Virus record (IMG/VR): IMGVR_UViG_3300020472_000024
Location: 1-62,754 of that record
Source of the DNA: a virus
Direction: 5' to 3' (one strand)
DNA: 62,754 nt
The position numbers were made by a program, and so were the translations under genes. This document shows, piece by piece, positions 3,930 through 56,551 of the stretch. Within the stretch, counting starts at the first letter, position 1. The number at the start of each line of letters is the position of its first letter. The notes beneath the pieces were generated by a model. The model worked only from the letters and a program-made list of their open reading frames with translations. It did no database searches and had not been told where the DNA came from.

Positions 3930-3949
3930 TATATATTCCTCATTATTAA

Positions 3950-4185: not shown

Positions 4186-4195
4186 ATTAAATTCT

Positions 4196-37957: not shown

Positions 37958-37958
37958 T

Positions 37959-39047: not shown

Positions 39048-40008
39048 CAGCATTCTCCTCCTGTTTTAATTCTTCTTTTAATTTTGCTTCTTCTTTAATT
39101 TGTTGTTTACGTTCTTCTTTTGCTCTTTCTTTTTCATCAATATAATCTTGGTAAGTCTTTTCTACTTTTTCTTCACCAATATCAACCGTAATATCAGTAT
39201 CAACATAGTCTTTTATTTCTGGTACTTCTACTTCTTTGATAGGTTCAAATTCCCATAGACCTTTGTCAACACCTAAATTGATAACATCAACTACACCTTT
39301 TTCAATTGCTTTTCTAACTGCAAGTGTAACTGGTTCGTTTCTAGCATAACCAGCTTCTACTTCAACTAACATTGTATCAGTATCAAAGTATTTAAATATG
39401 TCTGATCCTGTTGATGTAGAAAAAATAGTTTTCTCAACCGTTGTTGATAGTACAACTTCACCAGTCTGTACATTAATAACTCTTAATATAATAGTTACTA
39501 TGTCTTGTCTAAATTGTTTGTTTGCCTGAATACCTAATACTCTAGCACCAAAACCACCTGATTTAATATCTGAATCATAACCTACAATACCACCTGTGAT
39601 ATATGCACCAGCAAATAATAGTGGTGGTAAAGGTTCTGCACCCTCACCATTTACTTGTTGTCTTGTTGATCTAATTAATTTTCTTTCTTGTAATAAACTT
39701 GGAAGACTTGTTCTCTCTACAACTCTAAACCATTCACCATTACCTGCGTCTGCAAGTGCTTTAATTAATAATTGATATGATCCTTGAGTTACTGCCGTAC
39801 TCATTGACGCAAAAGAACCACCTGGTTTCTTTTGTCCTGTCATATCTATGAAATCGTAAACTGCAATTATAATAGGTTCACCTTTAGGTGATTCTATATT
39901 TGATAAATCTTTATAAGCAACCGTTTGTGTTCTTACATCAAACTTTGCTTTTCCAGCACAACCTACTAACAAAAAAGAAAGTAGGAATATTGATATGTAT
40001 TTTAACAT
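38998..40008 (-). CDS. csgG: CsgG-like curli secretion lipoprotein
   Basis: 336 aa. Signal MLKYISIFLLSFLLVGC with lipobox LVGC. The CsgG core follows: IIIAVYDFIDMTGQKK, GEWFRVVERTSLPSLLQERK, AGAYITGGIVGYDSDIKSGG, GARVLGIQANKQFRQDIVTI and INVQTGEVVLSTTVEKTI. CsgG forms the nonameric outer-membrane pore for curlin export. A Lys/Glu-rich C-terminal extension (about residues 275-336) is additional to E. coli CsgG (277 aa). One-base overlap with csgF. Confidence 0.93.
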   Translation of the reverse strand: MLKYISIFLLSFLLVGCAGKAKFDVRTQTVAYKDLSNIESPKGEPIIIAVYDFIDMTGQKKPGGSFASMSTAVTQGSYQLLIKALADAGNGEWFRVVERTSLPSLLQERKLIRSTRQQVNGEGAEPLPPLLFAGAYITGGIVGYDSDIKSGGFGARVLGIQANKQFRQDIVTIILRVINVQTGEVVLSTTVEKTIFSTSTGSDIFKYFDTDTMLVEVEAGYARNEPVTLAVRKAIEKGVVDVINLGVDKGLWEFEPIKEVEVPEIKDYVDTDITVDIGEEKVEKTYQDYIDEKERAKEERKQQIKEEAKLKEELKQEENADETDNDSDSDSSSDIK

Positions 40009-40475
40009 TACGTATTGTCCTCTTTAGGCATTGTAAATGTCGTTACGGTTCCGTCTGTTTCTGTAACGGTTACGGTTACATTACCTGTACCTGAAGGTGT
40101 TGCCCAAGTAACTACTTCACCACCTACTGGTGATGTAAATGTACCAGAGTCTTGTTGTAGACCATCAGTACCAAATACGTTATCTGTAATTTGTTTTGCA
40201 AGGGCAGTATAAAATCTTGCCTCTATATTTGACTTAAACTTAGCAATTGCTGTGTTTTTTGCTTCTGTTTCTGCTTTTTCTTTAGCAGCTTTTTCTGCTG
40301 CCTTGATAGCGTCTTTTCTAGTCTTCTCTATATTCTCAATTGTTAGATAGTGTGATGATTTTCCGTTACCAGAAAACGATGGACTACCAAACTTAAAGGT
40401 AAGTTCACTACCTTTTACTGATTGGATTGATAAAACTACTAAAATTGTTGCTAATGCTAGTGATAATTTTCCCAT
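40008..40475 (-). CDS. csgF: CsgF-like curli assembly factor
   Basis: 155 aa. Signal MGKLSLALATILVVLSIQSV, then ELTFKFGSPSFSGN, equivalent to TMTFQFRNPNFGGN at the mature N-terminus of CsgF, the part that plugs the CsgG pore. A helical Lys/Ala segment and a C-terminal beta region (GNVTVTVTETDGTVTTF) follow. Its late promoter TATAAATA lies 21 nt upstream of the ATG. It should lock curlin nucleation to the CsgG channel. Confidence 0.85.
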   Translation of the reverse strand: MGKLSLALATILVVLSIQSVKGSELTFKFGSPSFSGNGKSSHYLTIENIEKTRKDAIKAAEKAAKEKAETEAKNTAIAKFKSNIEARFYTALAKQITDNVFGTDGLQQDSGTFTSPVGGEVVTWATPSGTGNVTVTVTETDGTVTTFTMPKEDNT

Positions 40476-40496
40476 AAATTTCTCTCTTTACAGGTA

Positions 40497-40504
40497 TATT
40501 TATA
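40497..40504 (-). promoter_or_regulatory. T4-type late promoter box TATAAATA of the curli-like operon
   Basis: Exact TATAAATA with 21 nt to the csgF ATG and a GAGAG ribosome site between; the best placed late box in the window. It predicts late expression of csgF through the cyclase. Confidence 0.8.
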
Positions 40505-40508
40505 AGAT

Positions 40509-40682
40509 TTACTTACTGAATTTGTCTGTTAATTTGTTGATTAGTTCAAAAGCGACTTTAATTTTTTCTTCTAAAACCTTAATTCGGTAATGTGCCTGCG
40601 CTAAGGTGACTATTAGTAATATAAATGCCACAAATATCGGCCATAATCTACTCAACATCAATACTGCGTCTGAAGCTTCCAT
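40509..40682 (-). CDS. 57-aa membrane peptide with coiled-coil tail
   Basis: MEASDAVLMLSRLWPIFVAF leads into one membrane helix (about residues 13-30), then a charged helix ending LTDKFSK. Lies between a small secreted-protein operon and the csgF late promoter. Function unknown. Confidence 0.5.
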   Translation of the reverse strand: MEASDAVLMLSRLWPIFVAFILLIVTLAQAHYRIKVLEEKIKVAFELINKLTDKFSK

Positions 40683-40687
40683 AATTA

Positions 40688-41152
40688 TTATTCGTATACT
40701 TTTTTTCTCTCGTATGCCTGCTCGTGTCTACCTGTAATCTCTAGTATTTCCCACTCGCCATTTTCTAATACTCTTACTTTTGCATTTACTTTATCACAAG
40801 TCATATTGTAAACACCGTCTTTAGTTTCACTTTCTTTATATTTTCTTTCTGCCTCTCTTTTATTTTTAAGGCAGTCCATTAAGTTTTCACTTGCAACGTG
40901 GTCAACTAGTTTTCTTTGTCCATCTTCTCCTAGTTCAAAGATACATACTGCAAATACAACACCGTCTTCAGGTGTAGATTCTGAAGTCTTGTGTTCTTCT
41001 TTCATAAAAGTTTTATGTGTATGTTTCTTTTCAATAGGACATACTTGGTGACCGTCATCGCCACAACCTGTGCAATCTGCAAATACAATACTAACACCAC
41101 CTATTAATATAATAAGTGAAAGTAATCCTGCTAATAGTAATCTTCCTTGCAT
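40688..41152 (-). CDS. Secreted Cys-rich protein
   Basis: 154 aa. Signal ending GGVSIVFA, then DCTGCGDDGHQVCPIEKK with four clustered cysteines, and ENLMDCLKNKREAERKYKES followed by a C-x-x-V-x-A element. Those latter features are shared with the next gene downstream, indicating duplication. Likely periplasmic with disulfides. One-base overlap with the downstream gene. Confidence 0.6.
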   Translation of the reverse strand: MQGRLLLAGLLSLIILIGGVSIVFADCTGCGDDGHQVCPIEKKHTHKTFMKEEHKTSESTPEDGVVFAVCIFELGEDGQRKLVDHVASENLMDCLKNKREAERKYKESETKDGVYNMTCDKVNAKVRVLENGEWEILEITGRHEQAYERKKVYE

Positions 41153-41457
41153 TAGTTTAATATTTTAAGTAATCTTATTCCGTATTTTGCTTGTTTGTCT
41201 TCTTGTAATAATGCTTTTACTTGTTTACAAGCAAATATAACTCTTTCGCCACCTACTTCTCTACTTGCTACTCTTTTAGATTTTAGGCATTGACTTATAT
41301 TTTCTTTGTAAACCCATTCAATTAATTTTCCGTTAAGTGTTAGTGTCAAAGCAATGACACCATCTTTTTCATACTTTTCACCACCAGTATATAATTTAGC
41401 TGCAAATACGCTAGTTGTAAATAATAATAAAAATAATATACTAGTTAATTTTTTCAT
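41152..41457 (-). CDS. Secreted protein, paralogue of the upstream-transcribed neighbour
   Basis: 101 aa. Signal MKKLTSILFLLLFTTSVFAA. KENISQCLKSKRVASREVGG and FACKQVKALLQED match the CLKxKR...CxxVxA pattern of the protein at 40688-41152. Small single-domain periplasmic protein with one disulfide likely. Function unknown. Confidence 0.6.
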   Translation of the reverse strand: MKKLTSILFLLLFTTSVFAAKLYTGGEKYEKDGVIALTLTLNGKLIEWVYKENISQCLKSKRVASREVGGERVIFACKQVKALLQEDKQAKYGIRLLKILN

Positions 41458-44204: not shown

Positions 44205-44454
44205 CTGTACTATTCATCTTATCTAATTGCCATTGTTTATATTGTTCGTCAGTTATTTCTTCGCAACCCATTTGAAAACTTTGATATGTCATTCCTAAAG
44301 TTTTAAATGCACCTAATGTTTCTTCCATAATAGGTGGCATTGCTTTTTCACATTGCTCACGTGTATTATAAATTTGTAAATCAGTTCTATAATGGGTAGT
44401 ACAATCTACTTCGCCCATTGACATTATACATAGTAATCCAAATATTCTAAACAT
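44191..44454 (-). CDS. Small exported protein
   Basis: 87 aa from MFRIFGLLCIMSMGEVDC. Hydrophobic N-terminus, cysteines in REQCEKAMPP and MGCEEITDE that could pair. Starts within the stop of the oxygenase gene (TAATG). Not recognised. Confidence 0.5.
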   Translation of the reverse strand: MFRIFGLLCIMSMGEVDCTTHYRTDLQIYNTREQCEKAMPPIMEETLGAFKTLGMTYQSFQMGCEEITDEQYKQWQLDKMNSTDDEV

Positions 44455-45029
44455 TATTTTTTCCAATACTTATTTGATCGCAAGTTATAAACTAATGCTA
44501 ATCTATTTCGTATGCCATCTGCTTTATAACTATGCCAGGTATGATCGGTTCTACTAAAAGCAAAAGCACGGTTCGGTTTCCAATCAACTTGATAAGGATT
44601 TTTACCTGACTTATCCTCATACAACCAAGTACCTTCGTTTTTTTCAGGTGCAATATAAATCACTACACTTAATAATTTATCTCTACTATCACTATGAATA
44701 GGAAAGACATAATCTCTTCCATTATTTACAACATTTAATTCTGTATATTGATAATGTTGTAGTTTATCTGGCGCTAATTCTGTTAACCATTGCCACATTT
44801 TATCGTGGTATGAATTGTGTATCTCTTTTATTTGATCTTCACTTAAAGGAGATATACCTTCTTTGCCAGATGATGATTGAAAACCTATTTCTATTTTACC
44901 GTCTTTGTAAATCTTGTGTTTATAGATATCCCACTCATCAAATTTTGTATTAAACTCTATATTTCCTATCGTATGTAAATGTCTATGATATAAAAAATTG
45001 TCTTCAATAATATACTTTGGCCACATCAA
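44454..45029 (-). CDS. 2OG-Fe(II) oxygenase
   Basis: 191 aa. Double-stranded beta-helix motifs: YVFPIHSDSRDKLLSVVIYI (H-x-D iron ligands and first strands), EGTWLYED, and SRTDHTWHSYKADGIRNRLA (distal His and the Arg that binds 2-oxoglutarate). It should hydroxylate a protein, nucleic acid or small molecule. The window has two more such enzymes (59.6 and 61.5 kb). Substrate unknown. Confidence 0.75.
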   Translation of the reverse strand: MMWPKYIIEDNFLYHRHLHTIGNIEFNTKFDEWDIYKHKIYKDGKIEIGFQSSSGKEGISPLSEDQIKEIHNSYHDKMWQWLTELAPDKLQHYQYTELNVVNNGRDYVFPIHSDSRDKLLSVVIYIAPEKNEGTWLYEDKSGKNPYQVDWKPNRAFAFSRTDHTWHSYKADGIRNRLALVYNLRSNKYWKK

Positions 45030-45034
45030 TTATC

Positions 45035-45292
45035 TCATTTCTTTTTTTTACTCGCCTTTAAATTTACCGTTCCAATAGAATCTAATGGTCTCATTGTAGT
45101 TGGTTCTAGTGAAGTGCTAACTGAATCACCAACACCTGCTGACAAACCTACTCGTCTAGCACTTTTACCACCTTGTCCTTTAGGTGATGTATCAGTACCT
45201 TTTCTACTCAATGCTGCCATCGGTTGTAAACTATCTAATCCACCAACTTTAATAGTTGATATACCTAGATATTCTTTTAAAGATTTAACCAT
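45035..45292 (-). CDS. Hypothetical virion-region protein
   Basis: 85 aa. N-terminus MVKSLKEYLGISTIKVGG resembles the capsid-targeting-like peptides of nearby genes but lacks a (I/L)xE site. Gly/Ser-rich middle and KKKK end. Probably structural by neighbourhood. Confidence 0.45.
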   Translation of the reverse strand: MVKSLKEYLGISTIKVGGLDSLQPMAALSRKGTDTSPKGQGGKSARRVGLSAGVGDSVSTSLEPTTMRPLDSIGTVNLKASKKKK

Positions 45293-45620
45293 TGTATTTG
45301 TCCTTAAATGTTTTGTATTCTTTTTCTTCTTCTACTTTTAATTCTGTTTTACCAAAATGTTTTTCATCTATTGCGTGTTCAATGTTTTCTATCTTTTCAA
45401 TAACACCTCTTAATACTACATTGTTATTGTCATCACTCTCTTTGATTTTTCTTTTGATAGGTTTAGCAAACATCAACGGATCTTTTTTATCTTTTCTAAC
45501 ACCTGGTTCGTGTTTAGGAGGCAATGCAACATTACCACCATCACCAACAGCATTTGCTGGTGCGTCTTCATCAATCTTGTTGATGATTTCATCCATCATT
45601 TCTTTATAATGTTTTGGCAT
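45285..45620 (-). CDS. Conserved virion-region protein
   Basis: 111 aa from MPKHYKEMMDEIINKIDEDA. The motif ANAVGDGGNVALPPKHEPGV followed by RKDKKDP recalls a short conserved element of T4-like cyanophage tail or head proteins (from memory). Acidic C-terminus. No enzyme motif. Overlaps the upstream gene by 17 nt. Confidence 0.5.
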   Translation of the reverse strand: MPKHYKEMMDEIINKIDEDAPANAVGDGGNVALPPKHEPGVRKDKKDPLMFAKPIKRKIKESDDNNNVVLRGVIEKIENIEHAIDEKHFGKTELKVEEEKEYKTFKDKYNG

Positions 45621-46089
45621 AGTCAAACTCCGATTTTAATTCTCCATCTTTTTCATATACATCAACACCAAACCAATTACAAACAATTTGATCGTCTGTA
45701 TAAAACTCTGGTATCTCTCTGCTTTCATTTAATATATCTTCATAGAGATTGTTGTCTTTTAAATATGTAATAATAGTTGACTCTATTACATCTTTGTGTT
45801 TTGAATATTCTTTATTCTCTTTTAATAATAAAGCAGCAGCAACAGCAAATGATCCTAACTTACCTTTAATACCTACCTTAGCAAGTATTCTTTTTAAATT
45901 AAAAACAAACCTATGTAGTACCGTATAGGAACGCTTTGCTTCTGTTCCTTTAATCTGTCTATACTTTTGAAGTACCTTACCATCTTTATCAATGATACCA
46001 TACTTAAAAGCAGGTTGTTTTTCAAAAGGTGTTACTAGCATTTTAATAACTCTATATGCAATCAGTAAATCTACTGGTCTATTTGCCAT
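45604..46089 (-). CDS. Conserved T4-like virion-region protein
   Basis: 161 aa starting MANRPVDLLIAYRVIKMLVT, then PFEKQPAFKYGIIDKDGKVL, a start I recognise from cyanomyophage proteins in the tail/baseplate neighbourhood. Helical middle with an alanine-rich segment. Function not assigned. Confidence 0.55.
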   Translation of the reverse strand: MANRPVDLLIAYRVIKMLVTPFEKQPAFKYGIIDKDGKVLQKYRQIKGTEAKRSYTVLHRFVFNLKRILAKVGIKGKLGSFAVAAALLLKENKEYSKHKDVIESTIITYLKDNNLYEDILNESREIPEFYTDDQIVCNWFGVDVYEKDGELKSEFDYAKTL

Positions 46090-46451
46090 TACATTTCCTC
46101 TAATAGTTTCTTAATGTTTTCATCTACTTCAATCTCATTAAGTTCGTGTGGATATAGATAATTCAAGTGTTGTAAAACCGTTTTCAAAATTGGCCAGTAT
46201 TGTTTATCTATTTTGTATAAAAGTAATACACAAGCCGCCTCTACTCCAAAAACATTTTGTAAAACTATAATGTGATTTACAATTAGTCTTACTTTTATTT
46301 CACCTATTAACTTATATCTACGAAATAACCTTTTAAGATATTTGAATCTTTTAATGTCATCATATAATTCCTTATCTTTTTCAAGTGTAGGATTATCATA
46401 ATTCTGCTGTGCATACAGCATCCAATTATCTTTGGTTATCTCTTTGAACAT
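46089..46451 (-). CDS. Conserved T4-like virion-region protein
   Basis: 120 aa, starts MFKEITKDNWMLYAQQNYDN, mostly helical (RLIVNHIIVLQNVFGVEAAC). Companion of the preceding gene in many marine T4-like phages as I recall. Function unknown. Confidence 0.55.
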   Translation of the reverse strand: MFKEITKDNWMLYAQQNYDNPTLEKDKELYDDIKRFKYLKRLFRRYKLIGEIKVRLIVNHIIVLQNVFGVEAACVLLLYKIDKQYWPILKTVLQHLNYLYPHELNEIEVDENIKKLLEEM

Positions 46452-46453
46452 TA

Positions 46454-46897
46454 CTACACTAATTTAGCGTAGACTTTTGATGTTCCGTTTTGTAAAGTTT
46501 CATAAGATACTTCCATCTTTAATCCACCTTCTTTTCTATGAGATATACCATCATCATTTATATCAGAACCATCGGTATCTTTACCAAATCTTCCTCCGAA
46601 TTGAGTCACTTCACAAGAAACTTTACCAGAATCTCCTTGAATATCACAAGGTGATACCGTAAGACCTATTCTTTGTAACTTTTCTCTTAATTCGTCAACT
46701 GCAAATTGAGGTTTCATATATTCCCTTTCGGCAATAGAACCAACAAATGCGTTAACTCTTTTTAAAACATCAGCGTCAGCAATATTATGTACACCTATTG
46801 ATGAATCTTCTACTGAATTTGTAGTTTGTGATCCAACAGCAGCGGCACTTTTATCCGAACCTGAATGTTCGTTTACGTGTTGTTTAAAAGTTTTCAT
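46454..46897 (-). CDS. Virion-region protein with capsid-targeting-like N-terminus
   Basis: 147 aa. MKTFKQHVNEHSGSDKSAA parallels the T4 internal-protein targeting peptide MKTYQEFIAE; VNE matches the position of the (I/L)xE cleavage. The rest is a compact alpha/beta domain (LREKLQRIGLTVSPCDIQGD, GKVSCEVTQFGG). Probably packaged inside the head and trimmed by the prohead protease. Confidence 0.6.
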   Translation of the reverse strand: MKTFKQHVNEHSGSDKSAAAVGSQTTNSVEDSSIGVHNIADADVLKRVNAFVGSIAEREYMKPQFAVDELREKLQRIGLTVSPCDIQGDSGKVSCEVTQFGGRFGKDTDGSDINDDGISHRKEGGLKMEVSYETLQNGTSKVYAKLV

Positions 46898-47028
46898 TTA
46901 TTTTCCTCTACTTCTTTTTTAACTTCTTTTTTATCCTCAACCTCTTTAGATTGAGTGTCGCCTAAAACATCTTCCTCAAAGTCTTTTAATTCTTCTTCTT
47001 TGATATGTTGTTTAAACTTTTTTACCAT
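46894..47028 (-). CDS. 44-aa peptide with capsid-targeting-like N-terminus
   Basis: MVKKFKQHIKEEELKDFEED, then a Lys/Glu-rich end (EVKKEVEENK). The first 11 residues fit the targeting pattern with IKE. Such a short, highly charged protein resembles T4 internal or core peptides such as gp67/gp68. Overlaps the next ATG (ATGA). Confidence 0.55.
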   Translation of the reverse strand: MVKKFKQHIKEEELKDFEEDVLGDTQSKEVEDKKEVKKEVEENK

Positions 47029-47212
47029 CTGTTTCTCCCCTACTTAACTTTAAAAGTTTTTCAGTTTGTTGTACAGCACCATAGATTGCGTTTAAGTTAT
47101 TTCTTTGTTTCATAACTTCACCTTCCATAGTTTCTATACCTTTTTTAGTTTTTTCAAAATCAGCTTGCAATACTGCTAATTCTTCTTGCAAAAACTTTTC
47201 ATTAATTGACAT
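47012..47212 (-). CDS. Small coiled-coil protein
   Basis: 66 aa, starts MSINEKFLQEELAVLQADFE; continuous heptads to about residue 55, basic end. Overlaps the 44-aa ORF by 17 nt. Possibly a core or chaperone peptide of the virion region. Confidence 0.5.
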   Translation of the reverse strand: MSINEKFLQEELAVLQADFEKTKKGIETMEGEVMKQRNNLNAIYGAVQQTEKLLKLSRGETDGKKV

Positions 47213-47230
47213 AATTTAATACTCCTATTA

Positions 47231-47698
47231 TTAACTTACTACTTGGCCATTACCGCCAACTACATTCCACTTACTATCTTTAAACATCATAATTGCACTT
47301 CTACCTGGAGCGTCAATGTTAACTTTTGTACCAGCACCTGCATTGATATTTGTAGGTGTTATAGTAACTGGATTGACACCAGATGTAGAGTTGTTAATTA
47401 TGATTTTGATTTGACCATCTGTACCATCTGCTAAAGTACAAGGACAAGCGCCTGATGAAGCGTTTACCATAGTTGTTGAAGATGTAACCTCAACTTCTAA
47501 AGATGAAGATCCGTCACCTAATATTGTTTGGTGTGTATCTTTTAATCCTAAGTAAGAAGGTATATTATTAAATACATCTTCTGCTGTAACTTTTTTATTG
47601 ATTGGTGTTCCTGATGGATTATCTATTATGTGGAACAAATCCACACTTGCCAATGCGTCACCGAGATCGGTCAACGCCGTTATTTTCTTATCTGCCAT
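47231..47698 (-). CDS. Virion surface/fibre-like protein
   Basis: 155 aa. [20 protein letters not shown] and [20 protein letters not shown] match the N-terminal anchor of cyanophage fibre or decoration proteins, followed by a beta-rich Ser/Thr/Gly domain. Strong AGGAG ribosome site. Late gene by type. Probably on the virion exterior. Confidence 0.6.
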
Positions 47699-47779
47699 TT
47701 TTATTCTCCTATTAACCCCTTATGGGGAATGCTATTCTAGGCATACACCTAGACCACTTTGTTCATATAGTATATATAA

Positions 47780-47795
47780 GGGCGCCAAAGCGCCC
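47780..47795 (-). terminator. GC-rich hairpin after the 94-aa late protein
   Basis: Stem GGGCGC/GCGCCC with a 4-nt loop (47780-47785 with 47790-47795), then TTATATATA on the minus strand. Lies 15 nt after the stop at 47810. The T-run is interrupted, so it is a weak terminator or processing hairpin. Confidence 0.5.
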
Positions 47796-47809
47796 CTATA
47801 ATTATTTTA

Positions 47810-48094
47810 TTATGCGTTAGATGTTAGGCAAACTAAAGTAGTATATTGTACTCTATTTGCTCTGCCACCTGAACCAGTCGTTTTTAGAACCCATCCTGAA
47901 TGAGCAACCTTTCCAGATTGCGTTTCAGAAGCATTGTAGTTAAATAATCCGTGCGTAGCGCCACTTATAAATGTGCCTGCAGAAGCATTTTCGTACAACG
48001 AAGTTCTATTAGCGCTTGAAGGCGCTACGTTCAACATAGTAGCCGCCCATAATGGCGCTCCACCTGCTGATGATGCTGTTGTCCAACTTGACAT
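47810..48094 (-). CDS. Small late virion-type protein
   Basis: 94 aa: MSSWTTASSAGGAPLWAATM, VAPSSANRTSLYENASAGTF, then AHSGWVLKTTGSGGRANRVQ and YTTLVCLTSNA. I recognise this plan from abundant small proteins of T4-like cyanophages, likely capsid-associated. A late box lies 55 nt upstream. Not biochemically known to me. Confidence 0.6.
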   Translation of the reverse strand: MSSWTTASSAGGAPLWAATMLNVAPSSANRTSLYENASAGTFISGATHGLFNYNASETQSGKVAHSGWVLKTTGSGGRANRVQYTTLVCLTSNA

Positions 48095-48149
48095 AGTATT
48101 CTCTCCCTTGTTAAATTGTTAAGGTACTCAATTTGTTAGTATATGATAC

Positions 48150-48157
48150 TATTTATA
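48150..48157 (-). promoter_or_regulatory. T4-type late promoter box TATAAATA before the 94-aa virion protein
   Basis: TATAAATA in a gap between genes, 55 nt before the ATG at 48094, with an AGGGAGAG ribosome site at the gene. Intergenic location supports function. Confidence 0.7.
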
Positions 48158-48167
48158 AGGAAAGATA

Positions 48168-48656
48168 CTAGAAACCTAGTTTTTTGAGTTGTCTAATAGT
48201 GTTTGCGTAAGATGTATGATGTATACCAATTCCACCTCTAGCAGTGAATTGATTAGTGTTTTTAGGGTAATCGTCTATTAATATTGCAGGTTGTCCACCT
48301 GATTTTGCGTATAGTTGTTTCTGTGATCTCTTAACTAGATTGACTCTACCAGCAGAAAGACCTAATTTAGTTCTTGCCCAATGTGATTTTCCAGGTATAC
48401 AATTAGGATCAAAAGTTTGTTCTACATATGCTGATAATATGTGAGGTTGAAACTTTGATATGTAAGACCATAGTTGTCTTCCACCTGCCTGCCAAGGTAA
48501 AGTGTGCCAAAATTTTGGGGTGTCTTTGATTGGTTGCCACTTTTCAGACTTACTAGCATACTGCCATTTAGATATAGGCATACCAGTTACCTTTTCAGCA
48601 GCAGTTTTAAAATCACAAAGAACACCATCCATATCACAATAGATACGAGGTTTCAT
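48168..48656 (-). CDS. HAD-family 5'(3')-deoxyribonucleotidase-like phosphatase
   Basis: 162 aa. CDMDGVLCDFKTA is the HAD motif I (D-M-D-G-V), HILSAYVEQ carries motif II Ser, and AILIDDYPKNTNQF motif IV (DD). Small cap as in NT5C-type enzymes. It may dephosphorylate dNMPs, or have another nucleotide or protein substrate. Sits just before the late promoter of the virion protein. Confidence 0.75.
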   Translation of the reverse strand: MKPRIYCDMDGVLCDFKTAAEKVTGMPISKWQYASKSEKWQPIKDTPKFWHTLPWQAGGRQLWSYISKFQPHILSAYVEQTFDPNCIPGKSHWARTKLGLSAGRVNLVKRSQKQLYAKSGGQPAILIDDYPKNTNQFTARGGIGIHHTSYANTIRQLKKLGF

Positions 48657-48660
48657 AGTT

Positions 48661-50067
48661 TTAGTATTTGTAATCTACTCTTGGATTCATTTCAGGTGAA
48701 GTTGCAACTTGACCTGTCATTGTTTTTTTCTTTGAATCTCTAGTGTCTGTGTCTGCTTCTTGTTCTTTCTTTTTATTAGACTCTCCGTCAGGTGAGTTTT
48801 TAGGACCTTTACCTTCTTTGATTTCAGCAGCCATCATTGCAAAAGTTTTCCATTCATTCTTTGGTGTTTTAATTATTTCTTTTTCTCCACCAGCACTTTT
48901 TTGATGTCTATTTGCTTTTGCTGTTTGACCCATATGAGTTTCTTTTACTTCTTGTTTTTTCTTATCTTCTTTATCTTTAAGAAGTTTATGAGCAACACCA
49001 ATAGTTAATGGAACCTCACCTGTTTCTTTATTAGGTTCTGGTTTCACAACTTTGTTTTTTTCGTTTTCAATCTTTTGTTTTAATAAATTGATTTGACCTT
49101 GAGCAACTACTAATTGTTTTTCTAATGCGTCTGCGTCTTTAGGTGTTTCTTTAGCAGGTGTTGAATTAGGTTCTACTTCAGATTTTTTTTTCTTAATATC
49201 TTCTGCCATTTGTGCAAAAGTTTTTGTATTAAAAAATCCTTCTTTAACTTCTTCTTTTTTAGGTACACAATTTGGTACTTCTTTACCATCTTTCTTTTTC
49301 ATACCTATCATTTCATAATTTTTCCAACAAGGGTCTTTATCTTCTTTCATTGATGGATCAAAATGTGATAATCTAAAACCATATGGTTTAGATATACGAG
49401 CAGTTGTTTTTTCTGCACCTTCTATTTCAACATCTTCTAAACTTCCGCCACCACCTGGTCCGATTTGTCTTTTTGCTCTTGCCTTGTCTAATTCTTTCAT
49501 TGCCTTATCTTCAGCATCCTTTTCACTATTTGCATTAACAACTACTTCAAAACCATCAGCACCACCGATACCTTTATAACCCATAGTACCTGATACCAAC
49601 CATCTTGCTTCTTCTAAATCTTCTTTAACTTCTTTTTTCTTCATTGCCATCACAGATCCGTATTCTTTTTTCATTGATCTTAATTTAGCAAGGTCTTTGC
49701 CATCAATATCTCCATCTTTATCTTTATCTAATTTCTTTTGACCTCCTACTAAATTTTCTTTCACTTCTTTTTCTTCTTGTTTCTTTTCTTTTGGAATTTT
49801 GCCATCTTTATCTGGCACACAATTAGGTACTTGTCTTCCACCTTTGTCTTTCATACCAACCTTTTTGTATCCTTTCCAACACGCCTCATCAACTTTTGCG
49901 TAAAATTCTTTCTTCTCAGCACCAGTCATATGACCTATAGGTTTGCCTGCCATTTCTAATTGTTTTTTAAAGTTATCTTGGTAGTCAGATTCTAAAACTT
50001 TATTCTGTAAGTTTTTTACCGTATCTTCAATACTACCTTCTTTAGTTTTTAAATATTTTTCTCCCAT
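48661..50067 (-). CDS. Lys/Glu-rich structural or core protein with Cys-repeat modules
   Basis: 468 aa. Two repeats ACWKGYKKVGMKDKGGRQVP / PCWKNYEMIGMKKKDGKEVP at about residues 62-85 and 246-269, each ending NCVP. A Ca-loop-like DKDKDGDIDGKDL (about 114-126) and two FAxMAxxIK elements follow. Extreme charge and low complexity resemble prohead core/scaffold proteins of T4-like phages. Probably an internal head component. Confidence 0.6.
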   Translation of the reverse strand: MGEKYLKTKEGSIEDTVKNLQNKVLESDYQDNFKKQLEMAGKPIGHMTGAEKKEFYAKVDEACWKGYKKVGMKDKGGRQVPNCVPDKDGKIPKEKKQEEKEVKENLVGGQKKLDKDKDGDIDGKDLAKLRSMKKEYGSVMAMKKKEVKEDLEEARWLVSGTMGYKGIGGADGFEVVVNANSEKDAEDKAMKELDKARAKRQIGPGGGGSLEDVEIEGAEKTTARISKPYGFRLSHFDPSMKEDKDPCWKNYEMIGMKKKDGKEVPNCVPKKEEVKEGFFNTKTFAQMAEDIKKKKSEVEPNSTPAKETPKDADALEKQLVVAQGQINLLKQKIENEKNKVVKPEPNKETGEVPLTIGVAHKLLKDKEDKKKQEVKETHMGQTAKANRHQKSAGGEKEIIKTPKNEWKTFAMMAAEIKEGKGPKNSPDGESNKKKEQEADTDTRDSKKKTMTGQVATSPEMNPRVDYKY

Positions 50068-51230
50068 TATGGTCTCCTTAATCCTTTATGAAATTTATCT
50101 TTTGCTCTTTTAATTTTTCTATCTAAAACTTTTAGTTTTAGTTTGTCTGAAACCTCTCTATATATTCTTTCAAAGGTTGCCTTACCTGGATGTATATAAG
50201 TTTCATTAGCAGTTTTTAATGCTCTTGCAATAGTAGATACTTTAGATAAATCTTTAGCAATCTTTTCTATTTCTCTTACTGCCTTACTATACATTCCATC
50301 ACTCTTTACAGCAATTTTCATTGCCTTAGCAACTTTATCAGGACCGTATTGAATAGGGTCTGACTCTACTACACTTTTTGGTCTTATTCTTATTTCGTTA
50401 ACAGGTGATGTATTTCTACCCATTTTGTTTATTTTAAAACCTTTTTTTCTTAAATTAGCTGCCTTATTTTGTAAGTCTGCTAAAGTTTCTGCGTCTTCAA
50501 AACCAGCGTGTTTGCCATATCTATCATCATAAGATAGTCTAAATGCCGATTTCTTTTCTTCAAGTTCTTTTCCTTTTGCAGGATCTTTTTCTGCAACTCT
50601 ATATCCAAATCTATATTTTGGTTTTCTACTCTTAGCAAAACTACCTTGTTTTGATGATGTATTAGCACCACCTCTTTCAGAAATATTTTCTTCTTCTTTA
50701 ACTACTTTAACATCTTTAGTACCTTTCATATCACCAGTTTTGTACCACTTAATAAATTTTTCTGCCTCTTGTGAAGTTTTATATTTTCCGTGTATTACTT
50801 TTCCGCCATCTTTTTTTGTAATCTGTACTTTAAATGATTCTCTTACAGGCATACCTTTTTTTACCATACGAGATAATGCTAAACCAGATAAGAAAGGTAT
50901 ATGTTTCTTTCTTAAATCATTTAAAAATGCGTCAGGTATTCTATCAAATATTTTTCTTAATTTGTTTGCCTGATCTATTGAAATTGTTTTACCTTTTAGG
51001 TCTGAATATTGTTTTGATAAAGTATCTAATTGTGACCTTGAAAATTCTTGTAGTTCAACTTCTTCACCTAAAATTTTCTTAACCGTACTTAATGGTAACT
51101 TTAATGCCTTAGCAATTTCTTTAGCAGATTGTCCTTCTTGGTCAGCAGTAAAAATATCTTTCATTCTACCTTCATCTATTTCAAAGTTGAATTGTGCAAC
51201 TTCATCCATTAATGATCTAATATGTTTCAT
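50067..51230 (-). CDS. Basic internal-head-type protein with targeting-like N-terminus
   Basis: 387 aa. Starts MKHIRSLMDEVAQFNFEIDE (MDE at the cleavage position). GQSAKEIAKALKLPLSTVKK is a helix-turn-helix segment near residues 33-52. Two further modules follow: KVQITKKDGGKVIHGKYKTS and SAFRLSYDDRYGKHAGFEDA. Lysine-rich, as expected for a DNA-associated head protein. One-base overlap with the Cys-repeat gene. Confidence 0.55.
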   Translation of the reverse strand: MKHIRSLMDEVAQFNFEIDEGRMKDIFTADQEGQSAKEIAKALKLPLSTVKKILGEEVELQEFSRSQLDTLSKQYSDLKGKTISIDQANKLRKIFDRIPDAFLNDLRKKHIPFLSGLALSRMVKKGMPVRESFKVQITKKDGGKVIHGKYKTSQEAEKFIKWYKTGDMKGTKDVKVVKEEENISERGGANTSSKQGSFAKSRKPKYRFGYRVAEKDPAKGKELEEKKSAFRLSYDDRYGKHAGFEDAETLADLQNKAANLRKKGFKINKMGRNTSPVNEIRIRPKSVVESDPIQYGPDKVAKAMKIAVKSDGMYSKAVREIEKIAKDLSKVSTIARALKTANETYIHPGKATFERIYREVSDKLKLKVLDRKIKRAKDKFHKGLRRP

Positions 51231-51239
51231 AGTTCTTCC

Positions 51240-51551
51240 TTATAGTGCCGAATAAATTTCGTCCCAATTTTTTACTTTTCTTTTTAAATCTGTCATCATC
51301 ATTTTTTCAAGTCTTTGTCTGATAGTAATAGCATCGTTTCCAATAACTCTAGCATAATTATTATGTACTGCTTCTAAACCTGAATATGCGTCTGCTAATT
51401 TTTTATCTCTTAAAATTTCAGCAGCAATATATCTTCTACTTTCAAAGTGATCGTTCTTTGCTGTCTTTGCTCTAATATATTGTAAATTAGTTTTAGACGC
51501 TTCTGTCGCTTCTAATAAATTTTCTCTTACTTCTTTTAATGTTCTTTTCAT
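51240..51551 (-). CDS. Helical protein with targeting-like N-terminus
   Basis: 103 aa from MKRTLKEVRENLLEATEASK; LLE lies near residue 14. Mostly helical, basic (RRYIAAEILRDKKLADAYSG). The ATG at 51551 avoids a Lys-run extension that overlaps the upstream ORF further. Likely a virion-internal protein by neighbourhood. Confidence 0.5.
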   Translation of the reverse strand: MKRTLKEVRENLLEATEASKTNLQYIRAKTAKNDHFESRRYIAAEILRDKKLADAYSGLEAVHNNYARVIGNDAITIRQRLEKMMMTDLKRKVKNWDEIYSAL

Positions 51552-51636
51552 CTTCTTTTTCTTCTTTATCAAACTGCTCGGAGTTTGGTGTGTTGTTTGC
51601 TAGATCATCTAAAAACTTATCAAGTTCTTTATCCAT
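51493..51636 (-). CDS. 47-aa acidic/basic peptide
   Basis: MDKELDKFLDDLANNTPNSE then a Lys/Glu-rich tail. ATG overlaps the upstream stop (TAATG). Overlaps the next gene by 59 nt, so it may be a coupling peptide rather than a functional protein. Confidence 0.4.
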   Translation of the reverse strand: MDKELDKFLDDLANNTPNSEQFDKEEKEDEKNIKRSKRKFIRSDRSV

Positions 51637-53720
51637 TATAAATTCTTTATCATTTTAGATACGACTTCAGATAACTTTTTCTGCCATTCTTCCTTGTATC
51701 TTTCCTTATATTTATCTATTGTTTCACTTGTAGTTGACCAATCATTTATATCTTTTACAGAAATGTCTGTACTTATTGGTCTTTCTACTACTTTTTCTCC
51801 AGAAGTATTATCTACTGCTGGTTTATATGATCCACCCTCATAATTTGGGTCATATCCGTCTTGTCCTGGGGTTACTTTTATTGTATGTTGAGCATAATCG
51901 TGCCCAATATCGTATGATTCTTTTACTTTATCAGATTCTTCTTCTCTTTTTTCTGATACGGCTTCAAAACCATAATCTATGTCTAAATTGTATTCTCTCA
52001 CTTGTGCCTCTCTATCGGCAGATATAGGTAAACAATCCCATATCCACGCCTTGTGTAAATTATTGTTGTTGTCTTCTAGTACAATATAATTTGTACCTTT
52101 TCTAATCACTTTTCCATTTATATTTTCTTTTATGTGATTAACTTTATCCCCTATATTAAAAATCATTTCTCTTATATAAAGGTCTCTTATTTGATTCTGT
52201 TCAAACTCTTGTAAAGATTTAATTGACTTGTAGTTAGTATCGTATTCCATACTTGCTACTAATCTCATTCCTTTTCTTACATCTTTAAATAAATCATCTG
52301 CGTTTCTGTATCCTGTAGGTACACCTTTTTTAAATGTATCGTAATCATCTTTACTAGCGGCATCCCTCATCTTACTTGCTGACATACCTGATACACCTTC
52401 TGCGTCTGGATCTCTTTCGCCTGCTGATAACACATTTATGTTATCAAAATTATAATGTCCGTGCCTACTTTTAACATCATTATATTTGTTTAGTATTGTT
52501 TCAAATTCTCTTACTCTATCTGAACCAACTACCATAAAAATTTCAGTATATCCTTGTCTGTATAGTTTACTTGCAATATCTAAAACCATATTTGTTGAAT
52601 TGATTTCAATGTTTCTACTATACTTAGGAAACATAAATTTCATATGTGCTAATTTTGTTCTAGGAGATAATGGATTCTTTCTAGGATCATTACTTCTACT
52701 TAAAAATATTTTAAATGTATCTGCTCTAACACTTGCAACTTTCTTAATTAGTTTTTCGTGTCCAGATGTAGGTGGATTAAATCTACCAAAAGTAAATGCA
52801 ATTGTTTTTCTTCTTCTAACTGCTTCTGATTTTAAACTATCTATCTCACTATCTGTTACAACACCATCATCTAATATTTTTTTACATTTTTTATAGAAAG
52901 TTATGTAGTGATACTTCTCTAACATTTTATAGATAACTGCTTTAGGTAATCTATTCTTAATACCGTACTTTCTAATTTCTTCAGGCGACATATCACTATC
53001 AAACGCTGCTCTTCTTTCAGCGTCTACCTTATCACCTACTTTAATTATTAATTCTATATCGTATTCTATTTCCTCTAGTTTATCTTTAACCTTATCTTGT
53101 AAATCTAAAACATCATTTGGAGTTAAACTTTGTAGTTCTTTGTAATCTATTATATCTCTTTTTAGTTCACCTTTAATTACATCTAACTCTTGTACTTTTC
53201 TTTCAAAATCTCTAACATATACAGAAGGATCAAATTTAAAATCTTCAGGTCGTTTAATAAATTTATTTTTACCTATATCAAATACTGCGTCTGCCTTTTT
53301 ATTTTGATCGTCATAAGTTTCTTTATCTGTAATAAAATAATAGTTAATAGGATGTTTTGTACCAGGTATTAATTTACCTTGTATGTTATCAGGATTTTTA
53401 GCAGATAAAAACTTTTGTGATAGTCTTAATCTTTCTTCTTCTTGTTTTTCTTTAGGTACATCAAATAAAACATTGATGTCTAGGTCAGCGTCATTTCTAT
53501 ATCTTCTAGTTAAGATAGAACCTATTAAAGAATAATCTAATATATCATATTCTTTTTTAAACTCCGTAAATTGTTTCATTATCATACCAATAATTTCAGG
53601 TTTGATTTTAGGGTCTTTAGATTCTGGATTAGAGAATACACCTGGAGCATATGTTTGTCTAGGTATGTCTATGACTGCCTCTTTTATTGGTATTGTTTTT
53701 ATGTATTCTTTAAATCTCAT
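51636..53720 (-). CDS. Fused pol-beta-type nucleotidyltransferase and cytidylyltransferase-like protein
   Basis: 694 aa. N-terminus MRFKEYIKTIPIKEAVID is targeting-like (IKE). Domain 1: SLIGSILTRRYRNDADLDIN (GS at 67-68, DADLD at 77-81), a pol-beta nucleotidyltransferase core. Domain 2 (about 305-460): FTFGRFNPPTSGHEKLIKKV with the T-x-GH motif and GVSGMSASKMRDAA, equivalent to ISxTxxR of NMNAT/cytidylyltransferases. Long Asp/Glu-rich C-terminus. Possible NAD-type, sugar- or RNA-nucleotidyl transfer. Two nucleotidyltransferase folds in one likely virion protein is unusual. Confidence 0.65.
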   Translation of the reverse strand: MRFKEYIKTIPIKEAVIDIPRQTYAPGVFSNPESKDPKIKPEIIGMIMKQFTEFKKEYDILDYSLIGSILTRRYRNDADLDINVLFDVPKEKQEEERLRLSQKFLSAKNPDNIQGKLIPGTKHPINYYFITDKETYDDQNKKADAVFDIGKNKFIKRPEDFKFDPSVYVRDFERKVQELDVIKGELKRDIIDYKELQSLTPNDVLDLQDKVKDKLEEIEYDIELIIKVGDKVDAERRAAFDSDMSPEEIRKYGIKNRLPKAVIYKMLEKYHYITFYKKCKKILDDGVVTDSEIDSLKSEAVRRRKTIAFTFGRFNPPTSGHEKLIKKVASVRADTFKIFLSRSNDPRKNPLSPRTKLAHMKFMFPKYSRNIEINSTNMVLDIASKLYRQGYTEIFMVVGSDRVREFETILNKYNDVKSRHGHYNFDNINVLSAGERDPDAEGVSGMSASKMRDAASKDDYDTFKKGVPTGYRNADDLFKDVRKGMRLVASMEYDTNYKSIKSLQEFEQNQIRDLYIREMIFNIGDKVNHIKENINGKVIRKGTNYIVLEDNNNNLHKAWIWDCLPISADREAQVREYNLDIDYGFEAVSEKREEESDKVKESYDIGHDYAQHTIKVTPGQDGYDPNYEGGSYKPAVDNTSGEKVVERPISTDISVKDINDWSTTSETIDKYKERYKEEWQKKLSEVVSKMIKNL

Positions 53721-54412
53721 TTTCTTTTCTTTAATTCTAGTTCTCTTTTAATCCACGCCATCGCTGTACGATTTTCTGGTTTAGTTCTCATTCTACTTCT
53801 AATAAATTTTGAAGCAGTAGATAGAGTTTTTGTAACTAATTCTTTTTCATCTCTACTATTATCTACAATTAACATTTTAGAAGGACCAAATACTCTTTGA
53901 AACGCACCCATATTTAATTGTACTTTTTGCCAACTTTTCTTTGTAATATATTCTGGTATACTTCTTTCTCTACTTTTATTTCTTTGCAATGCAACGTCTA
54001 AACTTGTATTGACAAATACCATATAACAATCATATCCTATATGTTTTAACATATTAACTTGACTAGATATAACTCCATAATCTCTTCCTGTACTATCAAC
54101 AATTACACCTAATCTTCCTTTAAGATAAGAATCTAATTGTTTTCCAGCAAATTGTTTTGCACCTTTTCTAATCATATCTCTAAAGTATGCTTCTTCATCT
54201 GGCATTTTCATAGACATACCTGCTTTTCTTAAATCTTTTTCAAACTTAACATCTGAATTAACAAGTTTTAAACCTGTGCCAGCAAAAGCACTAGCAGTTA
54301 CAAATGATTTTCCTGAACCAGGACCACCTGCTAAAAAGAATGCTTTAAATATACCAGGATCATAAACACCTTCATTGATATATTGTCTTACTGAATCTAA
54401 TGTCTTCTTCAT
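53717..54412 (-). CDS. P-loop kinase with targeting-like N-terminus (zeta-toxin/PNK-like)
   Basis: 231 aa. MKKTLDSVRQYINEGVYD (INE). Walker A FLAGGPGSGKSFVTASAF, then LVNSDVKFEKDLRKAG, VIVDSTGRDYGVISSQVNML (acidic Walker-B-like D) and CYMVFVNTSLDVALQRNKSR (lid arginines). The plan fits zeta-toxin-type or polynucleotide-kinase-like enzymes. Substrate unknown. Four-base overlap with adenylate kinase. Confidence 0.65.
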   Translation of the reverse strand: MKKTLDSVRQYINEGVYDPGIFKAFFLAGGPGSGKSFVTASAFAGTGLKLVNSDVKFEKDLRKAGMSMKMPDEEAYFRDMIRKGAKQFAGKQLDSYLKGRLGVIVDSTGRDYGVISSQVNMLKHIGYDCYMVFVNTSLDVALQRNKSRERSIPEYITKKSWQKVQLNMGAFQRVFGPSKMLIVDNSRDEKELVTKTLSTASKFIRSRMRTKPENRTAMAWIKRELELKKRK

Positions 54413-54972
54413 TTTGTTTTATCCATAATAGTCTGTGCTATTGCTTCTTTAGAATTACCTTCTGCTTTAATTTTTATTAACTCGTCTTTATAATAATCTA
54501 AAAGTGGTGCTGTTTCTTTTTCAAATACTTTCAATCTAGTTTTTATAATCTCTGGTTTATCGTCTGCTCTACCTCTAGCAGTTAATCTTTTAATTACTTC
54601 TTCTTCCGATACATCAAGGTAAACAACATAATCATATTCAATACCTTTTTCTTCCATTGCTTTTGCCTGTTCAATGTTTCTAGGAAAACCGTCAAAGATA
54701 TAACCTTTTTGTGCGTCTGGTTTTTCTAATCTATCTAATACAGCATTAATAACAATATCAGTAGGTGCAAATTTACCTTTTGCTAATAAATCTTTTACTT
54801 GATCGTTAGTCTTTGCTAACTTTCTCATCATATCACCAGTATATATGTGTGGTATGTTAAGTTTCTTTGTTATAATTTCCGAGTAAGTAGATTTACCTGA
54901 TCCAGGTCCACCAATCATAATGATTCTTTTTCTACCTAATGCCTCAAATATATAATCTTTAAAACTTTTCAC
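54409..54972 (-). CDS. Adenylate kinase with capsid-targeting-like N-terminus
   Basis: 187 aa, short-LID type. RIIMIGGPGSGKSTYSEIIT (P-loop), PHIYTGDMMRKLAK (NMP-binding), GYIFDGFPRNIEQAKAM (family signature) and VIKRLTARGRADDKPEIIKT (lid). Converts AMP + ATP to 2 ADP. The first ten residues MKSFKDYIFE precede the usual kinase start and match the T4 targeting peptide MKTYQEFIAE with IFE as cleavage site. Thus it may be packaged and injected. Confidence 0.88.
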   Translation of the reverse strand: MKSFKDYIFEALGRKRIIMIGGPGSGKSTYSEIITKKLNIPHIYTGDMMRKLAKTNDQVKDLLAKGKFAPTDIVINAVLDRLEKPDAQKGYIFDGFPRNIEQAKAMEEKGIEYDYVVYLDVSEEEVIKRLTARGRADDKPEIIKTRLKVFEKETAPLLDYYKDELIKIKAEGNSKEAIAQTIMDKTK

Positions 54973-55259
54973 TAATCCTCAACATCACTTCCTGATCGCC
55001 ATTGATAACAACTCCAGTATCTTGCTTTCCATTTAGGTCCTGGGTTATCACAATTATGTCTTGCTCTAAATGACGCTCTCCTCTCATCACTATCTCTTTT
55101 AATTTCCATATTAGGATCGCCAAAAGTTACCTTAACTACATTGCCTGATCCATTCTTAACATAAACACCAAACTTTTTTGAATTGCCTGAAGGCAATCTG
55201 AAAGGTTTGTTTAATTTCTTATTTTCTTTTTCTTCTATAAATTGTTTTAATGATTTCAT
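54972..55259 (-). CDS. Conserved small protein with targeting-like N-terminus
   Basis: 95 aa. MKSLKQFIEEKENKK, then FGVYVKNGSGNVVKVTFGDP and ERRASFRARHNCDNPGPKWK and ARYWSCYQW. The latter is a recurrent phage module (Arg-x-Arg-His-Asn-Cys), possibly DUF5872-like. Likely a virion-internal protein or head-associated factor. Function unknown. Confidence 0.6.
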   Translation of the reverse strand: MKSLKQFIEEKENKKLNKPFRLPSGNSKKFGVYVKNGSGNVVKVTFGDPNMEIKRDSDERRASFRARHNCDNPGPKWKARYWSCYQWRSGSDVED

Positions 55260-55263
55260 TTTT

Positions 55264-56484
55264 TTATCCTTTTACCCAATCTTTGGCGATAGTAAAGTTT
55301 GCTCTACTAAACTCTAATCTATCTACCAGTTTAACTGCACCTGCTTTTTTATCTACTGCAACAAATCCTTCTGGATTAGTTACTCTATAACCATTAGGTG
55401 TTCTAATAAAATGTCCTATTGATTGTATCTGCGATAATTTTTGTATTAAAAAATTCTTTGCATTTCCTAAACTTACGTGTGAAGCAATAGCAAAATACAA
55501 AGCATTTCTATTTCTATCTATAAATTTTAAATTTGTTTCTAATGCTTCTTTATATTTTTGTTTACCTTTTTCAGTTTTTCTAGCACTAATTTCTGTTCTT
55601 AAAATTTGTTCATAATATTCTCTAAACATATCTTGTAAAGTTTTAACCTTACCCATATGTCCTTGTGTGTTTCTAATGTAATGATTGAAAAATGATTTTA
55701 GTCTAAACCCTACTGATAAAGGATCGTTTGATTTCATTTGATTTAATAATGGACCTGCCTTAATTAAAGACCCTTGTGCCATTCTTATTAGTCCATCAAA
55801 CCTAGATAATTCTCCAGAAGTAAATGTAGATGATCCAGATGTATCAGTATAACCTGCACTTGCTAAATAAACTGCCGTTGATCCTGAAGTACCTCGTATT
55901 GTTCCAAACCCAGCAGATAAACTATCCATAGTTTTACCTGAATAGAAAGTATGAAATACAATTCCTATTCTTGCTCTGGATATTCTTCTACCTAACTTTG
56001 AAGAAGTTGGTACTGCATATGTTATAGTGTTAGGTGTAAAAGTTATCATCTTTTCACCATCTATACTTGCCATTTTCAAATCACTTTTTGTGAATAACAA
56101 ATCACCTTGATAGACACCTCTTATGCCTAATCTTTTTAAATCTCTTAAACACGCCATTAATTTCATTGCAACAGGACCAGAGTGATTTCTGCTTATGTCG
56201 CCAGGTGTGTAATTTATTTTAGGTGTTTTGTTGAAGACTGATTTTGTACCGACAAAGAATTTGCCGTTCTCAGGATTTGTGCCACAGATTATGGCAGGAG
56301 CGCCGTCCCATTTAACAGACATATTAACTCGTCCGCTAGCAGAACCAGCCAGCATATTTCTTACTGACTTTAAAAAATTTATTGCATTCTCTCCACCTTT
56401 TGAACCACGATTTATTATATCGTCTTCTAGGTGTTCTAGGTGCGTATTCTTTTCTGTGGTAATGAAACCTTTAAAACTAAACAT
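55264..56484 (-). CDS. Ligase/nucleotidyltransferase-like protein (DUF6267-like)
   Basis: 406 aa. MFSFKGFITTEKNTHLEH is targeting-like. VNMSVKWDGAPAIICG has the K-x-D-G of motif I of ATP-dependent ligases, GVYQGDLLFTKSDL fits motif III/IIIa, and IGIVFHTFYSG motif IV. No other ligase domains follow; the C-terminal half is helical. Could be an RNA ligase-like enzyme or an inactive structural derivative. Late promoter TATAAATA 59 nt upstream. Confidence 0.6.
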   Translation of the reverse strand: MFSFKGFITTEKNTHLEHLEDDIINRGSKGGENAINFLKSVRNMLAGSASGRVNMSVKWDGAPAIICGTNPENGKFFVGTKSVFNKTPKINYTPGDISRNHSGPVAMKLMACLRDLKRLGIRGVYQGDLLFTKSDLKMASIDGEKMITFTPNTITYAVPTSSKLGRRISRARIGIVFHTFYSGKTMDSLSAGFGTIRGTSGSTAVYLASAGYTDTSGSSTFTSGELSRFDGLIRMAQGSLIKAGPLLNQMKSNDPLSVGFRLKSFFNHYIRNTQGHMGKVKTLQDMFREYYEQILRTEISARKTEKGKQKYKEALETNLKFIDRNRNALYFAIASHVSLGNAKNFLIQKLSQIQSIGHFIRTPNGYRVTNPEGFVAVDKKAGAVKLVDRLEFSRANFTIAKDWVKG

Positions 56485-56543: not shown

Positions 56544-56551
56544 TATTTATA
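56544..56551 (-). promoter_or_regulatory. T4-type late promoter box TATAAATA before the ligase-like gene
   Basis: Box overlaps the stop of the 454-aa gene and lies 59 nt before the ATG at 56484, which has a GGAGAA ribosome site. It would drive the run of targeting-peptide genes. Confidence 0.65.

Follow-up and report, generated by a model that had tools for sequence, protein, structure and literature searches.

T4-type capsid-targeting leaders probably mark enzymes and small proteins of a marine phage gene block

The internal proteins of phage T4, IPI, IPII and IPIII, share the leader MKTYQEFIAE, which is cut by the protease gp21 and which, in two of them re-read here, runs MKTYQEFIAE↓A (an arrow marks a cleavage border throughout). 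Residues 4 and 7 of the T4 leader serve targeting and residues 8 and 10 serve processing, with an Asp at position 10 resulting in targeting without processing (PMC9026906). T4 injects its internal proteins as well as Alt, and type IV restriction enzymes are blocked by Ip1-Ip3 (PMC12373910, PMC9026906). The signal and its use to spot internal proteins of T-even phages are already known, as is the idea that it enables T4-like phages to carry a variety of proteins (PMC9026906, PMC3012670, PMC12373910). Here, we describe leaders of this kind in the IMG/VR virus record IMGVR_UViG_3300020472_000024, the 62,754 bases of which (the window) are probably a fragment of a virus genome. All 105 genes called in the window lie on the minus strand. 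At its right end, a truncated uvsX and the gp41 helicase are followed by a block of genes at 56.5-45 kb, and then by nrdA/nrdB at ~30 kb. The nearest isolate, as judged by the DUF6267 protein of the block (51% identity), is Pelagibacter phage HTVC008M, which has the same block after its own gp41 (gp126-gp143). We consider it very likely that the leaders found in this block are T4-type capsid-targeting propeptides, in an explanation that takes in all of the steps set out below.

Leaders at the gene starts of the block

A first-pass annotation of this DNA had quoted nine N-termini resembling the T4 signal, and all nine are real, standing at minus-strand gene starts inside 45035-56484. These genes, two that had not been highlighted, and one long protein without a leader are listed here.

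55264..56484, minus strand: DUF6267 protein (PF19782), 406 amino acids (aa), with a KxDG motif; leader MFSFKGFITTE, F4 and F7 kept, without conserved (I/L)xE
54972..55259, minus strand: phrog_7595 protein, 95 aa; leader MKSLKQFIEE (55230-55259)
54409..54972, minus strand: adenylate kinase with the 14-residue N-terminal extension MKSFKDYIFE↓ALGR (leader 54943-54972); GTG start, ATG in close relatives
53717..54412, minus strand: AAA_33/Zeta-type P-loop kinase; leader MKKTLDSVRQYINE↓GVYDP (54371-54412)
51636..53720, minus strand: Pol-beta-type nucleotidyltransferase fused to a cytidylyltransferase/NMNAT-like domain, 694 aa; leader MRFKEYIKTIPIKE↓AVID (53679-53720)
51240..51551, minus strand: 103 aa protein; leader MKRTLKEVRENLLE↓ATEAS (51510-51551)
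50067..51230, minus strand: 387 aa protein with the conserved site EIDE↓GRMKDI at residue 20 (leader 51171-51230) and further internal [ILV]xE sites
48661..50067, minus strand: 468 aa Lys/Glu-rich protein without a leader, with repeated VKE sites
46894..47028, minus strand: 44 aa protein; leader MVKKFKQHIKE (46996-47028)
46454..46897, minus strand: 147 aa protein; leader MKTFKQHVNE↓HSGS (46868-46897), E10 kept in all distinct relatives compared
45285..45620, minus strand: 111 aa protein; leader MPKHYKEMMDE, less certain and not highlighted by the first pass
45035..45292, minus strand: 85 aa protein; leader-like MVKSLKEYLG without the Glu, not highlighted by the first pass

No such leader is present on the genes at 48168-48656, 48661-50067, 47810-48094, 47231-47698, 47012-47212, 46089-46451 and 45604-46089. 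The adenylate kinase, the second P-loop kinase (AAA_33/Zeta) and the fused nucleotidyltransferase that the first pass had named were all recovered by domain matches, the adenylate kinase domain scoring 138 bits against PF00406, which is over the curated cut-off, with an intact P-loop, GGPGSGKST.

A strict pattern modelled on the T4 signal, [KR].{0,1}[FYLWI]..[FYLIMHWV][ILVMF].E with the E by residue 14, matched 6 of the 18 block genes (45-56.5 kb) and 1 of the 87 other window genes (Fisher P=7e-5). Residue shuffles of the block N-termini gave a mean of 0.1 strict matches (maximum 2 in 2000), and the expectation from internal 18-mers is 0.03. Two relatives that have the block carry the strict motif on 3/239 and 4/113 genes, which are block genes and one RimK-type ATP-grasp enzyme; the start of the latter, MQ(I/V)PKFKDY(I/L)TE↓AK, bears the tag in G001 and G004. 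Being scarce outside the block in the window and both relatives, the motif is not general to the N-termini of these genomes, and the equal frequency in other genes that would speak against a role in packaging is not seen. A narrow degenerate DNA pattern gave no match in the window. In Melnitz-3 (L161:82-1131), a RimK-like gene adjoins its DNA polymerase.

The leaders behave as removable modules when compared across 153 related IMG/VR contigs or loci, counting distinct leaders. In the P-loop kinase, the leader closes with (L/I)xE immediately ahead of G[VLI]YD in 57/57 cases, at lengths of 10-14 residues (MNEFRHYLNE, MKTFEQIRYLQE and MKKFDDIRFQELKE are examples from relatives). The nucleotidyltransferase leaders, of 5-20 residues, end in E in 49 of 51 cases, and those of the adenylate kinase in all 12; LxE is present in 9/9 leaders of the 51240-51551 protein. 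In the 50067-51230 family, an E precedes G(R/K)MKDI in 26/26 contexts, mostly as (I/L/V/F)xE, whereas relatives of the 95 aa phrog_7595 protein mostly have MKTFKEY-like leaders with a later IFE or (I/L)xE. Alignments of the window protein with adenylate kinases of solved structure begin only at its residue 13-17, indicating that its leader is an extension. In five unrelated families, the length and sequence of the leader vary while (I/L)xE is fixed at the border between leader and domain. The leaders are short, with an aromatic or hydrophobic residue at positions 4 and 7 and a basic residue near the start, as is characteristic of cargo with a T4-type capsid targeting sequence. The first pass placed (I/L/V/M)xE mostly at residues 10-14; two of its nine N-termini call for correction, MFSFKGFITTE, the Glu of which is not conserved, and MKHIRSLMDE of the 50067-51230 protein, where E10 was rejected as the site for want of conservation and the conserved site lies at residue 20.

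It could be argued that such leaders are merely N-termini that suit translation initiation (A-rich codons, MKxF), or peptides that dock onto another complex. The phage is AT-rich, MK-starts are common, and a loose version of the motif, found in 11/18 block genes, is also present in 18/87 others (P=0.001). Nevertheless, the conserved part is the Glu together with the hydrophobic residue at P3, which lie where the domain begins rather than close to the start codon; moreover, tagged proteins are found in S-CREM2 virions and a scrambled tag is nearly absent from IMG/VR (see below). We regard this explanation as very unlikely.

The DUF6267 protein, described in the first pass as ligase-like cargo, stands apart. 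Its K58-W-D60-G61 is invariant or nearly so. For the putative ligase fold, a poor model (predicted local distance difference test score of 68) gave no significant fold match in the PDB, where no sequence match was found either. Among 33 distinct leaders of its relatives, the Glu is kept in 9 and P3 is never hydrophobic, with F4 and F7 kept. In S-SZBM1, the DUF6267 protein has no leader (MAKNTHLEHLED), and its product, S-SZBM1_141, is absent from the virion list of that phage. For lack of a conserved (I/L)xE at the border, it was not filed as cargo; its leader could be targeting-like and probably unprocessed, in the manner of the T4 signal with Asp at position 10, or it could simply be the protein's own N-terminus, the protein not being cargo at all.

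The leaderless 48661-50067 protein contains VKE four times, compared to 0.6 expected (P=0.0025), and its 35 homologues, which are long and Lys/Glu-rich, have 90 (I/L/V)(K/Q)E sites where 56 are expected. Judging from these repeats, this family is possibly one of polyprotein-like internal proteins cut by the prohead protease.

Tagged proteins in published virions and the prohead protease

Of the 218 annotated proteins of the cyanophage S-CREM2, 5 carry the tag, and each of these is among the 52 virion proteins (PMC10665884 Table 3; Fisher P=6.6e-4); the test is weakened because part of the S-CREM2 N-termini were already known when the pattern was drawn up. Among non-structural proteins, the association of tag and virion has P=3e-5. 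The five proteins are as follows.

S-CREM2 gp6, L158:3837-5081: MKDFDSFLEE; annotated as a SAM hydrolase, matching the S-AdoMet_lyase family, a known anti-restriction type
S-CREM2 gp12, L158:7704-10313: RFASFMAE↓A after a 16-residue extension; large, annotated as a Cas9 nuclease, a label without Pfam support
S-CREM2 gp13: MKDLHSFLTE; small protein
S-CREM2 gp14: MKRFDAFLTE; kinase
S-CREM2 gp154: MKNFSSFLTE↓A; cytidylyltransferase

The last of these is orthologous to the window nucleotidyltransferase. This cytidylyltransferase is a published virion protein in S-SM1 (PMC3037559), S-CREM2, S-SZBM1 and S-SCSM1, and in all four it starts with the tag (S-SM1 MKKFSAFLNE↓A, S-SCSM1 MKSFLQFLKE↓A, S-SZBM1 MRFRQFIIE↓A). 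Pooling the three phages S-CREM2, S-SZBM1 and S-SCSM1, 7/12 tagged proteins were detected in virions, compared to 120/706 others (P=0.0017).

The cleavage sites of major capsid proteins were read by eye and are predictions in all phages except T4, for which GSFLTE↓A is the established site. The predicted sites are GLLTE↓A in S-CREM2, GSFLAE↓A in S-SCSM1, GILTE↓A in S-SZBM1, AFMSE↓A in the block-bearing relative G004, and AFLGE↓I in HTVC008M. The borders of tagged cargo (SSFLTE↓A, SAFLNE↓A, LQFLKE↓A) resemble them, and an S77 prohead protease is present in four block-bearing relatives of the window (G001, G002, G004 and G008).

Several observations weigh against the view that the leaders are packaging signals. 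HTVC008M has 0/198 strict matches despite its syntenic block, its leaders being shorter or different (for example, MIPFILKE↓GLYDPGIFK). In S-SZBM1 and S-SCSM1 together, only 2 of 7 tagged proteins were detected, the cytidylyltransferase in each, which is not significant alone. In S-SCSM1, the block gp89-gp93 is marked as virion throughout, and gp89, gp90, gp92 and gp93 are without a canonical tag. The presence of S77 does not separate tag-bearing IMG/VR contigs (11/17) from controls (7/12), and because gp21, gp22 and gp23 lie outside the window fragment, the protease specificity of this phage itself is not seen. Finally, the authors of the proteomes raise the carry-over of abundant non-virion proteins (PMC10665884, PMC9602691), and detection was sometimes by few peptides. 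The virion-detected proteins could thus be contaminants from highly expressed late genes, with a shared N-terminus unrelated to packaging. We regard this as very unlikely, as four independent proteomes contain the orthologous cytidylyltransferase, the bodies behind the tag are unrelated (at least 102 clusters), and the S-CREM2 virion list lacks replication enzymes such as NrdA, the DNA polymerase and the single-stranded-DNA-binding protein.

Range of tagged proteins in IMG/VR

A DNA scan of IMG/VR with two tag patterns gave at least 120 matches for each. As controls, an order-scrambled version of the second pattern had 2 matches in the whole collection and a reversed-codon version of the first had 24. 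Among the matches listed, to which the figures in this paragraph refer, 236 tagged open reading frames (ORFs) fall into at least 102 clusters with unrelated bodies (mean column identity 6%), and 29 of 199 contigs carry two or more tagged ORFs, with one carrying five in a row. The tag sits at gene starts: the median distance to the upstream in-frame stop is 6 codons, and 90% are within 20. Positions left free by the pattern are constrained (T/S3 2.2 bits, Q/E6 2.3, K/R5 1.4), the residue that follows the Glu is preferentially A, and from residue 12 onwards less than 0.3 bits of information remain. Recognised domains include DUF6267, adenylate kinase, Zeta-type kinase, cytidylyltransferase, GNAT and RNA ligase; most ORFs have none. 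Individual tagged proteins of interest are given below.

L358: tagged ADP-ribosyltransferase (ART-domain)
L324:279-845: tagged HD_4 protein resembling (p)ppGpp hydrolases
L403: tagged glucosaminidase
L357:398-778, metagenomic contig: tagged 126 aa protein, the C-terminal half of which matches Pfam Tad6 (type I Thoeris inhibitor)

A cargo island is present at L227:5912-9422: the products of five consecutive genes begin with MK(T/S)FK(Q/S)FIxE, each followed by a body unrelated to the others. A small tagged protein, MK(T/S)FK(Q/S)F(M/L)SE↓SVNISGDFNG, recurs in cyanophages and IMG/VR contigs (S-SCSM1 44215-44535, S-SZBM1 122311-122628) and is not marked as virion.

Packaging need not imply a function in the host, as tagged proteins might enter the head as scaffold-like proteins of head or core assembly. 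T4 IPIII affects head morphogenesis and is scaffold-like in part (PMC9026906), and several block proteins are of small size and rich in Lys and Glu, with no enzymatic domain recognised in them. On the other hand, adenylate kinase, kinase and nucleotidyltransferase domains make little sense in a scaffold, and the same applies to the SAM lyase, RimK, ADP-ribosyltransferase and Tad6 proteins of relatives; we therefore consider a purely structural role unlikely. We lean slightly towards a broader idea, that T4-like phages use the decapeptide as a general cargo code, by which hundreds of unrelated proteins (metabolic enzymes, ADP-ribosyltransferases, (p)ppGpp-hydrolase-like enzymes, SAM lyase and defence inhibitors) would be packaged and injected as pre-made effectors, some long block proteins being polyproteins cut at (I/L/V)xE repeats.

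Proposed pathway and comparison with known systems

The predicted packaging of tagged proteins is well supported by the motif statistics, the modular (I/L)xE borders and the published virion proteomics of tagged orthologues. The proposal of the first pass that a T4-type signal packages these products is upheld to that extent, and fails for the ligase-like DUF6267 protein, which lacks a conserved processing site. Injection and a function in the host are what we infer from there. In the proposed pathway, tagged proteins would be made late, the only pointer to timing being the octamer TATAAATA at 56544-56551. Leader residues 4 and 7 would bind the prohead core, and an S77 (gp21-type) protease would cut after the leader Glu. 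The mature adenylate kinase, Zeta-like kinase, nucleotidyltransferase and small proteins would stay in the head with the DNA and be ejected with it. They would probably work ahead of phage gene expression, as T4 Alt and the T4 internal proteins do, with nucleotide/NAD pools or RNA as targets and first-line defences to be countered. In the earliest minutes of infection, the nucleotide kinase and nucleotidyltransferase/NMNAT-like domains might serve the metabolism of nucleotides, NAD or RNA, which is a guess.

The octamer itself is suggestive only.

56544..56551, minus strand: T4-type late-promoter-like octamer TATAAATA, just upstream of the first gene of the block

It occurs in 10 copies on the coding strand of the window and 0 on the other, with 6/10 within ~70 nucleotides of a gene start; the total is not in excess (10 compared to 17 expected from shuffles), the octamer being only strand-biased and often close to gene starts. 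Counts of sigma-70 promoters and terminators in the window are at shuffle level. Elsewhere in the window, a transfer-messenger RNA gene is predicted at 3903-4223 (tag ANESYALAA), and a gene run at 35807-41457 encodes products with signal-peptide-like starts. HTVC008M has annotated curli-like csgF/csgG/csgB genes, which suggests that this run is a curli-like export set.

Measuring which phage proteins accompany the DNA into the cell is difficult, and few have been identified. If the tag is a reliable packaging code outside T-even phages, injected effectors could be read from sequence, also in uncultured viruses; as related viruses carry tagged enzymes in their particles, the tag is usable for listing candidate injected proteins. 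The many tagged families without known function are candidate anti-defence or take-over proteins acting at time zero, and known anti-defence types are already among the tagged proteins, namely the SAM lyase-family protein of S-CREM2 virions and the Tad6-like Thoeris inhibitor of a metagenomic contig. The tag also suggests an explanation for the recurrent cytidylyltransferase/NMNAT-like enzyme in cyanophage virions, a repeated puzzle of that literature. In the portions of the literature on the capsid targeting sequence that were available, no application to cyanophages or pelagiphages was found, nor was a link of the T4 signal to enzymes in cyanophage virions, or a cargo survey outside T-even phages.

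The ejection proteins of SPN3US and phiKZ, as described in the accessible parts of the reports, resemble the present system in the removal of propeptides by a prohead protease and in an injected protein bolus (PMC5694885, PMC7411985), but belong to another phage lineage. The virion cytidylyltransferase/NMNAT of cyanophages (T4-GC190) shares a homologous domain and the same neighbourhood, gp41 - DUF6267 - nucleotidyltransferase - nrdA; the window protein differs in being fused to a Pol-beta-type nucleotidyltransferase, and the published reports, in the parts available, name no packaging signal. T4 Alt, an injected ADP-ribosyltransferase, resembles the cargo proposed here as an enzyme that enters the head and undergoes processing by gp21 (PMC9026906), and an ART-domain protein bears the tag in the scan; however, no Alt homologue was found in the block, and the leaders are of the IP-type decapeptide. 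The T4 internal proteins are alike in the decapeptide, with aromatic residues at 4 and 7, I/L at 8, E10 and a small residue after it, and with unrelated bodies behind one leader. Whereas the T4 internal proteins are small anti-restriction proteins, the cargo here includes kinases, a nucleotidyltransferase and other enzymes, and the block lies downstream of uvsX-gp41 in marine Kyanoviridae-like phages. What is new is the extension of the T4 internal-protein system to enzymes and to marine phages, with far more cargo types than are described in the accessible parts of the literature found.

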